From NCBI GenBank assembly GCA_026394555.1, contig JAPKXZ010000054.1, positions 1 through 33,353 of the forward strand: DNA of 33,353 nucleotides, given 5' to 3'. A program made the translations under genes and the position numbers. Shown here in pieces: positions 10,425-14,505 of the stretch. The stretch comes from Methanothrix sp. GTDB lineage: Archaea > Halobacteriota > Methanosarcinia > Methanotrichales > Methanotrichaceae. Position 1 is the stretch's first letter. Every line of letters begins with the position of its first letter. Under the pieces are notes generated by a model. That model worked only from the letters and a program-made list of their open reading frames with translations. It made no database searches and had not been told where the DNA came from.

Positions 10425-10470
10425 CGTTAAGTTCTTCAATCTTGAATGACTGGGAGGAACTAAGATCAAG

Positions 10471-13419
10471 TTGTTAGATTCGGCAGAAAGTGACAAGTTT
10501 TTATCTTTTCGCACCGCCGCTATTCTGGCCGCCACAATCATGCTGCTTCACCTGACACTGGTGATTCTCAGCGAAAGAAACGAGAACCTCCTTCCCATTA
10601 AGGATGTATTTGTAACCATGATCAGCGGGCTGGCTGCCACCGCCTTGTTTTACACAGCGCGTCGATTGGTGGGCAGGGCCAGAAAAGCCTGGATAATGAT
10701 TGCTGCCGCCATGTTGTTCAATACCCTGGGGGATTTATCCTGGTCGGTGATCGAGTTCGTCCTCCATCAGAACCCATTTCCTTCGTTTGCGGACATCGGC
10801 TACCTCATGTTCTACCCTCTCTTCGCGTTGGGCATATTTCTTCTGCCGGAGGTACCGTTCTCTCCTCGGGAGAAAATCAAGATCCTGCTGGATGCTGGAA
10901 TCGTTATTGTATCGATCACTTTGGTATTTTGGGTCTTGCTGATTGCCCCAATTGTTATTTCTATAGAAGTATTTGATCTGGAATCGGCGGTTTCGCTGGC
11001 TTACCCCGTCATGGATTTGCTCCTTTTCATTGCTCTGATAGAGCTGCTCTATAGAAAGCTCGACTCTCGTGGACAGGGTCCCATCATTATTCTGGCTCTC
11101 AGCAGTGCGATATTAATATTAACGGATGTGATCTTCAGCATTCAGACACAGCAGGGAACATTCGTCTCCGGCGGCCTCCTAGATAGCGGCTGGGTGATGA
11201 GCTACCTCCTTTTTGGGCTGGCAGGAATTCTGCAGATAAACATTCCACCATTGGATAGATCTAGAGCTTCGGACTATGTTCAAAACAGGAGGGCGGATTG
11301 GACTCACAACTTGCCCTTCTTTGGGATCAGTTCCGTCTTTTTGCTCTTCGTCTGGGGCCAGGAATTCTTGCGTCCCATCAACTATTCTATGGTAACCGCC
11401 ACTCTCGGACTCCTCATTGGTCTGATGTTCATCCGTCATAAGGTGGTTTTTGATGAAAGCAATCAATCGGAAAAGGAAAAAGCCGCAATTCTTAGCGGGC
11501 TAAGAAAAGTGGCAGTAGAATATCTCGATACACAGATGCGCATCATCTGGGTTAATTCTTCAGTAAAAGAGTATCTCGGCACCTCCGAGGACGAGATCAA
11601 GGGAAAACACTGCTTTGAGATCATCCAGGGAATCGATAAACCCTGCATAGGCTGCACAGCCATCAAAGCCCTGCAGACCGGTCAATCCCAGGAAGGAGAA
11701 TTGATCACCCCGGACGGCAAGACCTGGCTGTCTCGGAGCAGTCCTATCAAGGATGCCAGGGGGATGGTCACGGGAGTGGTCCACGTAGCTCTAAACATCA
11801 GCGATCGCAAGAAGACTGAGAGCGCTCTGAAAGAGTCAGAGCGTCTTCTTGCGAGCATAATAGACTTCCTCCCCGATGCGACAAACGTCATCGACAAAGA
11901 AGGAAGAGTCATATCATGGAACAAATCGATGGAAAAGATGACCGGCGTCAAGGCCGAGCAGATCCTGGGAAAAGGAGATTACGAATACGCTTTGCCCTTC
12001 TATGGTGAGCGTATACCGGTACTCATAGATGCAGTGCGTGGATCAGATCAGATTTTTGAAAACCGATATGATACCATAAAAAGGCAAGAAGACGGCACTC
12101 TCGATGCCGAAGCCTACATCCCTAATCTATGCGGAAATGAAGCCTATATCCTGGGAAGCGCATCGGCTCTCTATGACTCTAACGGAAATTACAGGGGGGC
12201 GATCGAATCCATCCGCGACATCACAAAACGAAAACGTGCTGAGGAGGATTTACAGAGGGCCAAGGAGAAAGCTGAATTTGCCACGCGAGCCAAATCCGAA
12301 TTCCTGGCCAATATGAGCCACGAGATCCGCACGCCCATGAATGCCGTAATAGGCATAACCGGCTTTCTGCTGGATGAGGACCTCACGAAGAGTCAGAGGG
12401 AGTATGTTGAAATCATCCGCAGCAGTGGAGATACGCTCCTCACCATCATCAACAACATCCTCGATCTCACTAAGATCGAAACGGAGATGATTGAACTGGA
12501 GCACCAGCCCTTTGACCTGCATGACTGCCTTGATGTGTCTCTGGATATGGTGGCCATGGATGCCAGCAGGAAGGGTCTGGACACAGAGTACACCTTCGTA
12601 GACTATGTTCCAACGGTGATCCTGGGAGATCCCACCAGGATAAACCAGATCTTGATTAATTTGTTTAATAACGCTGTGAAGTTTACAGAAAAAGGCAAAA
12701 TCACCATCACTGTTTCGAGCAGAGCGGTAGAAGACGGCAACTATGAAATCCATTTTGCTGTAAAAGATACGGGAATCGGCATTCCAGAAGATAAGATGGG
12801 GCGCCTATTCCAGTCGTTTAGTCAGGTCGATGCATCGACAGCGCGCCGGTACGGTGGCACCGGTCTCGGACTGGCCATAAGCAAGAGGTTAGCGGAGCTA
12901 ATGGGAGGAAAGATGTGGGCCCTGAGTGAGGTTGGCAAGGGGTCTACTTTTCACTTCACAATCATGGTGGAACCGACCCTCTGCGGGCCGATCGAAATAG
13001 GCAGGCACGAATCGAGAATCGATGTCCAGGGAGATCTCAATAAAGGTTTGAGCATACTGTTGGCAGAAGATAACTTGGTTAACCAGATGGTGACTCAGAA
13101 AATGCTCAATAAGCTGGGATATAGAGCGGATGTGGCAGCCAACGGCATCGAGGTTTTGCAGGCCCTGGAGCGCCGGCATTACGATGTGGTGTTAATGGAC
13201 GTGCAGATGCCGGAAATGGACGGCCTGGAAGCTACCCAGGCGATACGTCAAAGATGGCCGGCTGGAGAGCGCCCATCGATCATCGCCATGACCGCTGCGG
13301 CCCTCAAGGGCGATCGTGATATGTGTTTGGCTGCAGGCATGGATGACTACGTAAGCAAGCCGGTCAAGATAGAGATGCTGAGGGCCGCTCTGCTGGCTTG
13401 CGGCAAGGACTGCCAATGA
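10471..13419 (+). CDS. Membrane-bound hybrid histidine kinase with two PAS domains and a receiver
   Basis: The product is 982 residues. The N-terminal ~325 residues hold about eight hydrophobic segments (a multi-pass sensor region, not a known MASE type by eye). A PAS domain at about 345-455 carries the Cys-rich 'KPCIGCTAI' motif, and a second PAS lies at about 458-588. A coiled linker leads to HisKA with phospho-acceptor His617 in 'NMSHEIRTPMNA'. HATPase_c follows (about 719-835; 'NLFNNAVKF', 'DTGIGIPEDKMG', 'GGTGLGLAISKRL'). The C-terminal receiver (about 859-979) has Asp910 in 'VLMDVQMPEMDG' and a Lys in 'SKPVK'. All catalytic motifs are intact. The start is TTG at 10471, with GGGAGGA 12 bases upstream, a long spacing, so it may be off by a few codons. 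The signal and output are unknown; no separate response regulator or HPt protein is visible here. Confidence 0.93.
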   Translation: MLDSAESDKFLSFRTAAILAATIMLLHLTLVILSERNENLLPIKDVFVTMISGLAATALFYTARRLVGRARKAWIMIAAAMLFNTLGDLSWSVIEFVLHQNPFPSFADIGYLMFYPLFALGIFLLPEVPFSPREKIKILLDAGIVIVSITLVFWVLLIAPIVISIEVFDLESAVSLAYPVMDLLLFIALIELLYRKLDSRGQGPIIILALSSAILILTDVIFSIQTQQGTFVSGGLLDSGWVMSYLLFGLAGILQINIPPLDRSRASDYVQNRRADWTHNLPFFGISSVFLLFVWGQEFLRPINYSMVTATLGLLIGLMFIRHKVVFDESNQSEKEKAAILSGLRKVAVEYLDTQMRIIWVNSSVKEYLGTSEDEIKGKHCFEIIQGIDKPCIGCTAIKALQTGQSQEGELITPDGKTWLSRSSPIKDARGMVTGVVHVALNISDRKKTESALKESERLLASIIDFLPDATNVIDKEGRVISWNKSMEKMTGVKAEQILGKGDYEYALPFYGERIPVLIDAVRGSDQIFENRYDTIKRQEDGTLDAEAYIPNLCGNEAYILGSASALYDSNGNYRGAIESIRDITKRKRAEEDLQRAKEKAEFATRAKSEFLANMSHEIRTPMNAVIGITGFLLDEDLTKSQREYVEIIRSSGDTLLTIINNILDLTKIETEMIELEHQPFDLHDCLDVSLDMVAMDASRKGLDTEYTFVDYVPTVILGDPTRINQILINLFNNAVKFTEKGKITITVSSRAVEDGNYEIHFAVKDTGIGIPEDKMGRLFQSFSQVDASTARRYGGTGLGLAISKRLAELMGGKMWALSEVGKGSTFHFTIMVEPTLCGPIEIGRHESRIDVQGDLNKGLSILLAEDNLVNQMVTQKMLNKLGYRADVAANGIEVLQALERRHYDVVLMDVQMPEMDGLEATQAIRQRWPAGERPSIIAMTAAALKGDRDMCLAAGMDDYVSKPVKIEMLRAALLACGKDCQ

Positions 13420-13461
13420 TGATACATAACAATATTAAGAGGTAAGAACACATTAATATTT

Positions 13462-13467
13462 GGAGGG
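13462..13467 (+). promoter_or_regulatory. Shine-Dalgarno pointing at an ACG codon
   Basis: GGAGGG lies 6 bases before the ACG at 13474. Nothing else within range is an ATG, GTG or TTG in this frame. The spacing and the signal peptide that follows mark ACG as the functional (or formerly ATG) start. Confidence 0.6.
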
Positions 13468-13473
13468 ATAAAT

Positions 13474-13908
13474 ACGAAGCTATTCACACTTGGCATTTTT
13501 GCCTTTGTTCTGGTCTCTCTGGCATCTGCCACTGTAGAGCTGGGCGGACAGTCCGGAAAAGATGTTCTGATAGGTATCGGGAATGGTACAGGCCTATGGG
13601 ACTGGGGCGAAGCGCCTTTGGGACATATCATCAACGACAGCAAGCTGATTGCAGGGTCCTGGATCGTCCCTGAGGACAGGTCTTCTATGCAGACCCCACT
13701 CCAGGCGAGCGGCATGGGCCGGGGTGGCTTTGCCAATGCGCCATATGTCAATAACATTGCATTTGATTACATGAATATACCGATAACATTCGACGGCTTC
13801 GGCGAATTGAGTACTCGGGATAATAAGCAATTCATGTCGGCTAGTGGTGTCTTCGACTCAACCGGCTTCAGGCCACCAAAGGAAAGCCAGTTCCCGAGAA
13901 TTTATTGA
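13474..13908 (+). CDS. Small secreted protein of unknown family with an apparent ACG start codon
   Basis: From ACG at 13474 the frame gives 144 residues beginning (M)KLFTLGIFAFVLVSLASA, a clean signal peptide with an Ala-x-Ala cleavage site. A mature domain of about 125 residues follows, rich in Gly, Asn and aromatic residues ('IGIGNGTGLWDWGEAPLG', 'NNIAFDYMNIPITFDGFG'). The in-frame stop upstream is TGA at 13420-13422. Between it and TTG at 13618 there is no ATG, GTG or TTG, and 13618 would delete the signal peptide. The reading frame is otherwise undamaged. I do not recognise the family; no cysteines or catalytic motifs stand out. It lies 54 bases after the histidine kinase gene, with ACAATATTAAG (13430-13440) as a possible promoter. 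Alternatives are a true ACG start, an ATG-to-ACG mutation that silences the gene, or a sequencing error. Confidence 0.6.
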   Translation, partial: TKLFTLGIFAFVLVSLASATVELGGQSGKDVLIGIGNGTGLWDWGEAPLGHIINDSKLIAGSWIVPEDRSSMQTPLQASGMGRGGFANAPYVNNIAFDYMNIPITFDGFGELSTRDNKQFMSASGVFDSTGFRPPKESQFPRIY

Positions 13909-13977: not shown

Positions 13978-14505
13978 TTACGTCTTCTGGGAAATATCAG
14001 ATATGATCTTCTCATATTCGAGCTGCTCACTGGGAACCGGCCTCTTTTCCTCATCCGGATAGCCAAAGGCGATCATGCACAGAACACTCAAATTCTCGGG
14101 AAACCCGAGCACTCGCTTGATGTAATCCTCCGAGGAGAGATTGCTGCTGTGCATTCTTTTTCTGATCTGAATCCAGCAAGAGCCCAGACCGAGGCTGCAG
14201 CCTGCGAGCTGCAGGATGATGGCGGCAATAGAGCAGTCCTCCACCCAGACATCCGACTCTCCCTGCGCAGCGCAGACAACCACACAGAGGCTTGCTCCTT
14301 TCAGGAAGCTTGAGCCGCTCTCTTTAGCTCTGGACAGCTCCGCCAGCAATGCTCTGTCCGTGATAAAAAGGAAACGCCAGGGATTGATGCCGCGAGAGGA
14401 GGGGGAACGCAGCGCGGCCTCCTTTATCAGTTCGATCTTCTCTGCTTCAATCTCCCGGTCCCTGTATCTTCTGATGCTGCGCCTTTCTCTCAGAATGTCG
14501 AGCAA
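13978..14505 (-). CDS. Nitroreductase family protein (FMN-dependent)
   Basis: The protein is 175 residues, typical for small archaeal nitroreductases. Near the N-terminus 'LRERRSIRRYRDREIEAEKI' is the diagnostic Arg-Ser-x-Arg FMN-phosphate motif, followed by 'AALRSPSSRGINPWRFLFI'. The helix 'CSIAAIILQLAGCSLGLGSCWIQIR' and the C-terminal 'MIAFGYPDEEKRPV' complete the fold. The start is TTG (14503-14505, minus) behind GAGGATC 4 bases away. It lies 51 bases downstream of the CAP-domain gene on the same strand. Cytoplasmic. Electron acceptor unknown. Confidence 0.9.
   Translation of the reverse strand: MLDILRERRSIRRYRDREIEAEKIELIKEAALRSPSSRGINPWRFLFITDRALLAELSRAKESGSSFLKGASLCVVVCAAQGESDVWVEDCSIAAIILQLAGCSLGLGSCWIQIRKRMHSSNLSSEDYIKRVLGFPENLSVLCMIAFGYPDEEKRPVPSEQLEYEKIISDISQKT

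Follow-up and report, generated by a model that had tools for sequence, protein, structure and literature searches.

The window analysed here, a 33,353-nucleotide stretch of Methanothrix DNA (contig C70 of genome G000), contains a gene for a small secreted protein that is very likely intact and translated from an ACG codon at position 13474, through near-cognate initiation with Met-tRNAi that is driven by a Shine-Dalgarno (SD) sequence, with ACG serving as a regular start codon in this lineage. Judging from the comparison of gene families, ACG and, even more often, CTG recur as start codons of related genomes, a pattern that is invisible from the window alone, and the window gene appears to be one case of several.

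The window gene and its start region

The features of the gene and its immediate surroundings are as follows.

10465..13419, + strand: histidine kinase gene, upstream of the window gene; the SD-spaced codon at 10465 is ATC
13417..13422, + strand: in-frame TGA TGA that bounds the frame upstream; the first TGA ends the histidine kinase gene
13462..13467, + strand: SD sequence GGAGGG, 6 bases 5' of ACG; the same spacing is found in the CTG, TTG and ACG paralogues
13474..13476, + strand: candidate ACG start codon; the aligned codon is ATG in two homologues (L003 and L004)
13474..13530, + strand: predicted signal peptide TKLFTLGIFAFVLVSLASA, the first 19 residues, recognised and cut by eye
13474..13908, + strand: coding sequence of the 144-amino acid secreted protein, with a putative ACG start and a TGA stop, from sequence reading and homologues
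13618..13620, + strand: TTG, the first canonical in-frame start, 3' of the signal peptide
13777..13905, + strand: C-terminal tail (residues 102-144) common to many secreted proteins of related genomes
13978-14505: nitroreductase gene, convergent, beyond the window gene

The original prediction described a GGAGGG 6 bases before ACG, a signal peptide directly after it, an otherwise clean frame of 144 codons and the absence of ATG, GTG or TTG in frame before 13618, and each of these observations holds. The GGAGGG is separated from ACG by the spacer ATAAAT, the ACG is followed by AAG CTA TTC and, by eye, by the signal peptide, and there are no internal stops in the 144 codons up to the TGA at 13906-13908. 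The lack of canonical codons extends back to the upstream stops, as ATG, GTG and TTG are all absent from the 17 codons between the TGA TGA and the ACG; no usable AUG, GUG or UUG was found at the N-terminus of the protein. The spacing between the SD sequence and the ACG is normal. The protein matches none of the Pfam and none of the NCBIfam families in a profile search at an E-value of 0.1.

The start region of the upstream histidine kinase gene (10465-10473) is without a well-placed canonical start as well. The SD-spaced codon is ATC both in the window and in the closest relative (G021), and the TTG at 10471, which comes first in the open reading frame list for this gene, adjoins a stretch missing in G021; the ATC at 10465 is possibly a near-cognate start too.

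ACG and CTG start sites in related gene families

Across the families, ACG exchanges at start sites with ATG, TTG, CTG or ATA, with ATA and ATC being rare. By these comparisons, ACG and CTG would act as start codons: they hold a fixed position behind the SD sequence and undergo no synonymous change in the aligned sets. Among the start counts given below, those for the 25 matches of a TPR family, the 100-record CTG/ACG family and the 26 sites of a third secreted family come from sets that were not picked by motif.

The TPR gene, which is unrelated to the window gene and has an SD-spaced ACG, emerged from a screen of the 430 kb sample of the window genome for frames that encode a signal peptide or membrane segment but have no canonical start. 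For its 25 matches in 50 genomes of the archaeal family (Methanotrichaceae), a reading of the start codons by eye, tolerant of small shifts in register, gives ACG for 18, ATG for 4, and TTG and ATA for 1 each, L275 being unclear. The 18 ACG genes belong to 16 species of the genus and to two genomes from other genera (G027 and G032). The codon preceding ACG varies (ATA, ATT, ATC, TTA, TTG, AAA) and ACG is constant; the second codon before ACG is a stop in 5 of the 16 (L209, L214, L264, L266, L267). Counting against the ACG start, some of these genes have in-frame canonical codons upstream: an ATG seven codons up in L269-L271, a TTG five codons up in L262 and L265, and a TTG adjoining ACG in L214. 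Codon periodicity starts at the ACG, with none upstream: the entropies at the three codon positions in 16 motif-picked sequences are 1.61/1.59/1.62 upstream and 0.57/0.45/1.11 downstream.

The third family, that of L342 from G021, is conserved, multi-copy and secreted, with matches in 43 of 50 genomes and a remote similarity to the CTG/ACG family (22% identity, E 8e-5). Of 30 loci read, 26 distinct sites reach the N-terminus, 9 partial matches having been dropped. The starts, counted by eye with a one-codon register shift allowed, are ATG in 11 sites, ACG in 8, TTG in 4, CTG in 2 (that of L376 being ambiguous with TTG) and ATC in 1 (L363). In L355, in L359 from another genus and in one L365 site from a third genus, an in-frame stop immediately precedes the ACG, so that no upstream in-frame start is possible; L360 has an ATG directly after the stop, at the same site.

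Through residues 102-144, the window protein is linked to a large assemblage of secreted proteins that share this tail. Matches to one such tail protein are found in 37 of the 60 genomes, all of the window's family. In 100 records (mostly matches to one tail protein, some fetched by motif, with one duplicate), the codon found at SD spacing ahead of the signal peptide is CTG in 37, the commonest start in this family, followed by ATG (15), TTG (12), ACG (7), GTG (2), ATA (2) and others (3), with no SD-spaced codon in 21. A rival second candidate codon is present in 8 of the 100 records (three of those with TTG, two with ATG, the two with GTG and one with ATA), and for two CTG records TTC is an alternative candidate. 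Across the 26 genomes of the genus, the pattern GGAGGGNNTGATCTG is matched 30 times, in 22 of them, against a single match for the reversed pattern, and 26 of the 30 lie at 5' ends of family genes according to our own matching of places (the exceptions are L089, L090, L091 and L094). Five members, L057, L132 (from the window's genome), L165, L175 and L178, have a stop codon immediately 5' of GGA GGG, leaving GGA, GGG, two variable codons and CTG as the only codons that can precede the signal peptide. Counting against CTG starts, a canonical codon lies within 14 codons upstream in 13 of the 37 CTG records, eight of which have GTG ten codons up (the others are L055, L056, L134, L135 and L141). 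In the CTG1 alignment set, picked by a motif that contains CTG, the start column is CTG in 24 of 24 sequences, and the other invariant leucine columns vary in 5 of 5 cases. Here too, codon periodicity starts at the CTG, with entropies of 1.04/1.09/1.12 upstream and 0.38/0.40/1.07 downstream in 20 motif-picked sequences of the CTG family. L172 (G002) is a further family gene with ACG, the match of which held an internal stop, and G004 has the CTG-started members L049 and L371.

Several peculiarities of the leaders in this family can be recorded separately. In many CTG1 members (e.g. L040 and L041, with ATGGAGGGATTGATCTGA), the SD sequence lies within a five-codon frame that starts with ATG and has a stop overlapping the CTG start; this frame is absent from L036, L037 and L057. 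Leaders with GGAGGG NN TGATC before CTG could, with a small bulge, pair further with the 16S tail, the complement of which we take to be GGAGGTGATC. In the genes for the secreted proteins L150 (G004) and L145 (G002), the SD-spaced codon is ATA where related genes have ATG.

ACG1, a paralogue of about 312 amino acids, has GAGGGATARAWACGAA at its start in six species. At ACG1 5' ends, the start context of the window gene is found unchanged in G008; the copies in G001, G007 and G024 differ from it at one base, and those in G019 and G020 at two. In the ACG1 alignment set, which was picked by a motif containing ACG, all six sequences have ACG followed by AAR AAN and then the signal peptide, and the other invariant threonine columns vary synonymously in 7 of 12 cases. 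The entropy contrast is weak (0.35/0.23/0.40 upstream and 0.24/0.14/0.54 downstream). An in-frame TTG, without a clear SD sequence, is conserved 20 codons upstream in 6 of 6, and a longer ACG1 product is therefore possible; the twelve bases before the SD sequence vary. The ACG1 leaders (L097, L102, L111, L113, L114 and L115) carry TTGACCTTC...TCTGGTGAAGGTCAA 25-60 bases upstream, strongly conserved in the six species, and the conserved upstream stretch would represent either a regulatory leader or an N-terminal extension.

Among the 26 genomes of the genus, the 17-base start context GAGGGATAAATACGAAG of the window gene occurs exactly in 3 places and with one mismatch in 3 more (in two genomes with a partial list of matches, the best ones have two and three mismatches), and each of the six marks the 5' end of a signal-peptide frame, which is more than chance would give. 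The 430 kb sampled from the window genome contain 59 coding-like frames with a hydrophobic segment at the N-terminus; in 11 of them, no canonical start lies within 14 codons before the segment, and two of the 11, the window gene and the TPR gene, have an SD-spaced ACG. When three genomes of the window's genus are taken, 5 of 25 such start-less frames have an SD-spaced ACG or CTG, compared with 0 of 10 with any SD-spaced codon in G045, a same-class genome taken as control, a difference that, by a hand estimate and with this small and partly biased control screen, is not significant. Among the five, L240 and L334 come from stretches chosen for known CTG genes and the window gene was given, whereas the TPR gene and L342 are independent. 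The codons found after GGAGG in the 430 kb are too sparse for their count alone to establish enrichment. An ATT candidate at 3842 in L197 was rejected, given that its two closest homologues differ at the N-termini. At L202 (8042, + strand, contig C2 of G000), GGAGGGATGACAATT stands before a signal-like segment, with an ATT at good SD spacing and an ATG too near the SD sequence.

Mechanism of initiation and alternative explanations

Near-cognate initiation with Met-tRNAi would be the simplest mechanism. The GGAGGG, six bases off, would position the 30S subunit at the ACG, and Met-tRNAi (anticodon CAU) would pair with this codon with one mismatch, at the middle base. We infer that the ribosome initiates at the ACG, that the chain begins with methionine and that the weakness of the codon is made up for by the SD sequence; the product would then bear a normal signal peptide and undergo export. 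The purpose might conceivably be low-level or tunable expression of surface proteins.

A further reading, which is rather unlikely, goes beyond leaky initiation at a handful of genes: ACG would be an ancient and regular start codon of the archaeal family, maintained either by a dedicated part of the initiation machinery (a modified initiator tRNA or factor) or by C-to-U editing of start codons. No unusual initiator tRNA was found in the 30 of 42 tRNA places that were read; the tRNAs there look ordinary, with Met (cat) present twice and Thr represented by cgt, tgt and ggt, and one place contained no ARAGORN gene. Loss of aIF1, which acts against non-canonical starts according to PMC8211752, was considered and rejected: a SUI1 match is present in 59 of the 60 genomes, and the sole miss is a 58%-complete genome.

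The original prediction had posed an either/or, initiation at ACG or recent silencing of the gene by a single base change, and proposed a comparison with sister genomes. This comparison finds ACG in G021 and ATG in G014 and G017. Initiation at ACG has comparative support from several families, and recent silencing is not supported. The orthologue in G021 has the same neighbour gene and the same GAGGGATAAATACGAAG, including the ACG, and its protein is 94% identical to the window protein over residues 1-107. The two genes differ in 11 of 102 codons; two of the differences are at a breakpoint, and the remaining nine comprise 7 synonymous and 2 nonsynonymous ones. No disabling change private to the window genome was found, the ACG being shared with G021, and there is no sign of relaxed selection in an NG86 dN/dS of 0.22, estimated from few changes over the 101 codons after the ACG, breakpoint included. 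The homologues in G014 and G017 (L003 and L004) have 48% identity, other gene neighbours and ATG at the aligned codon; for L003, the ATG start rests on the alignment because the frame continues upstream. With ACG in two genomes and ATG in two, these codons exchange at one site, and these four genomes together with the family context make up the case for the window gene by itself.

A young pseudogene with its start codon mutated away is thus improbable. The ATG in the two more distant homologues would fit a lost start codon, and the G021 copy does look interrupted: it is split near codon 100 between contigs C2 and C114 of that genome (L031/L032 3' end, L035), with the 3' part on C114, and the two contig ends at the break resemble each other when inverted (CAAATGnCCCCTACA; by eye), as with an insertion element, so that this copy was probably cut by an insertion-like break and may be broken now. 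However, the window frame is intact, the ACG is shared, the changes are mainly synonymous, and ACG is conserved at the start sites of other families.

Very unlikely is C-to-U editing of the mRNA, converting ACG to AUG and CUG to UUG before translation, which we consider a weaker explanation than near-cognate initiation. ACG and CTG are the two commonest starts outside ATG, GTG and TTG, each a single C-to-U step from a canonical codon, and start codons are created by editing in fern organelles, as the abstract of PMC12548569 indicates. Nevertheless, the SD-spaced ATA in L145 and L150 and the ATC in L363 are beyond C-to-U repair, and there was no archaeal paper on editing of this kind among the matches listed in a search not aimed at editing alone.

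The chances are slimmer still for a start upstream or in another frame, such as the ATGATG at 13416, followed by a shift, or for a start at the ATA at 13468. The short frame ATGATGATA...TAA (13416-13445) does precede the window gene, but it is out of frame and ends 28 bases before the ACG, and no slippery site was found by eye; these points speak against the shifted upstream start, which the original prediction had raised as the contrary case. The ATA is directly against the SD sequence, and in the TPR set it is the codon before ACG that varies. Exclusive use of the TTG at 13618 or another downstream codon is the least likely of all since, although this TTG is the first canonical in-frame start, the resulting cytoplasmic fragment would lack the signal peptide present in the ATG homologues.

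Relation to known start codons and implications

To our knowledge, NCBI table 11 does not list ACG as a start codon, and the tolerance of initiation factors for a middle-base mismatch has been studied mainly in eukaryotes, in which an ACG start is read by the initiator Met-tRNA. Like the GUG and UUG starts of archaea and bacteria, the ACG considered here would combine SD-directed initiation with a codon one base away from AUG but, unlike them, it mismatches the middle base. Against the ACG reading, one initiation review names AUG, GUG and UUG as the archaeal start codons (PMC7531240), and 'ACG' and 'CUG' are absent from its text. Among the matches listed in a literature search that mostly does not cover subscription journals, none dealt with archaeal ACG starts. 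In Methanosarcina mazei, a related methanogen, CTG initiation is likewise reported, there by Ribo-seq, for about 5% of the unannotated sORFs (PMC11456600); those sORFs encode at most 70 amino acids, whereas CTG and ACG here are conserved between species in genes for 144 to about 340 amino acids, and 'ACG' is absent from the main text of that paper. Eukaryotic ACG starts and the non-AUG or edited starts of plant organelles are near-cognate as well but depend on scanning, a plastid system or editing to AUG, in contrast to an SD-led archaeal system; non-AUG mutants of yeast are treated in PMC6412873.

If the ACG start is conserved and does not reflect damage, genes of this kind may be overlooked or wrongly placed by standard gene finders. 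For Methanothrix and its relatives, the start codons allowed in archaeal gene prediction would then be too few, and surface and secreted proteins would be annotated without their signal peptides or missed entirely. Natural, conserved, SD-led ACG starts would also provide a clean system for the tolerance of archaeal initiation factors to a middle-base mismatch.
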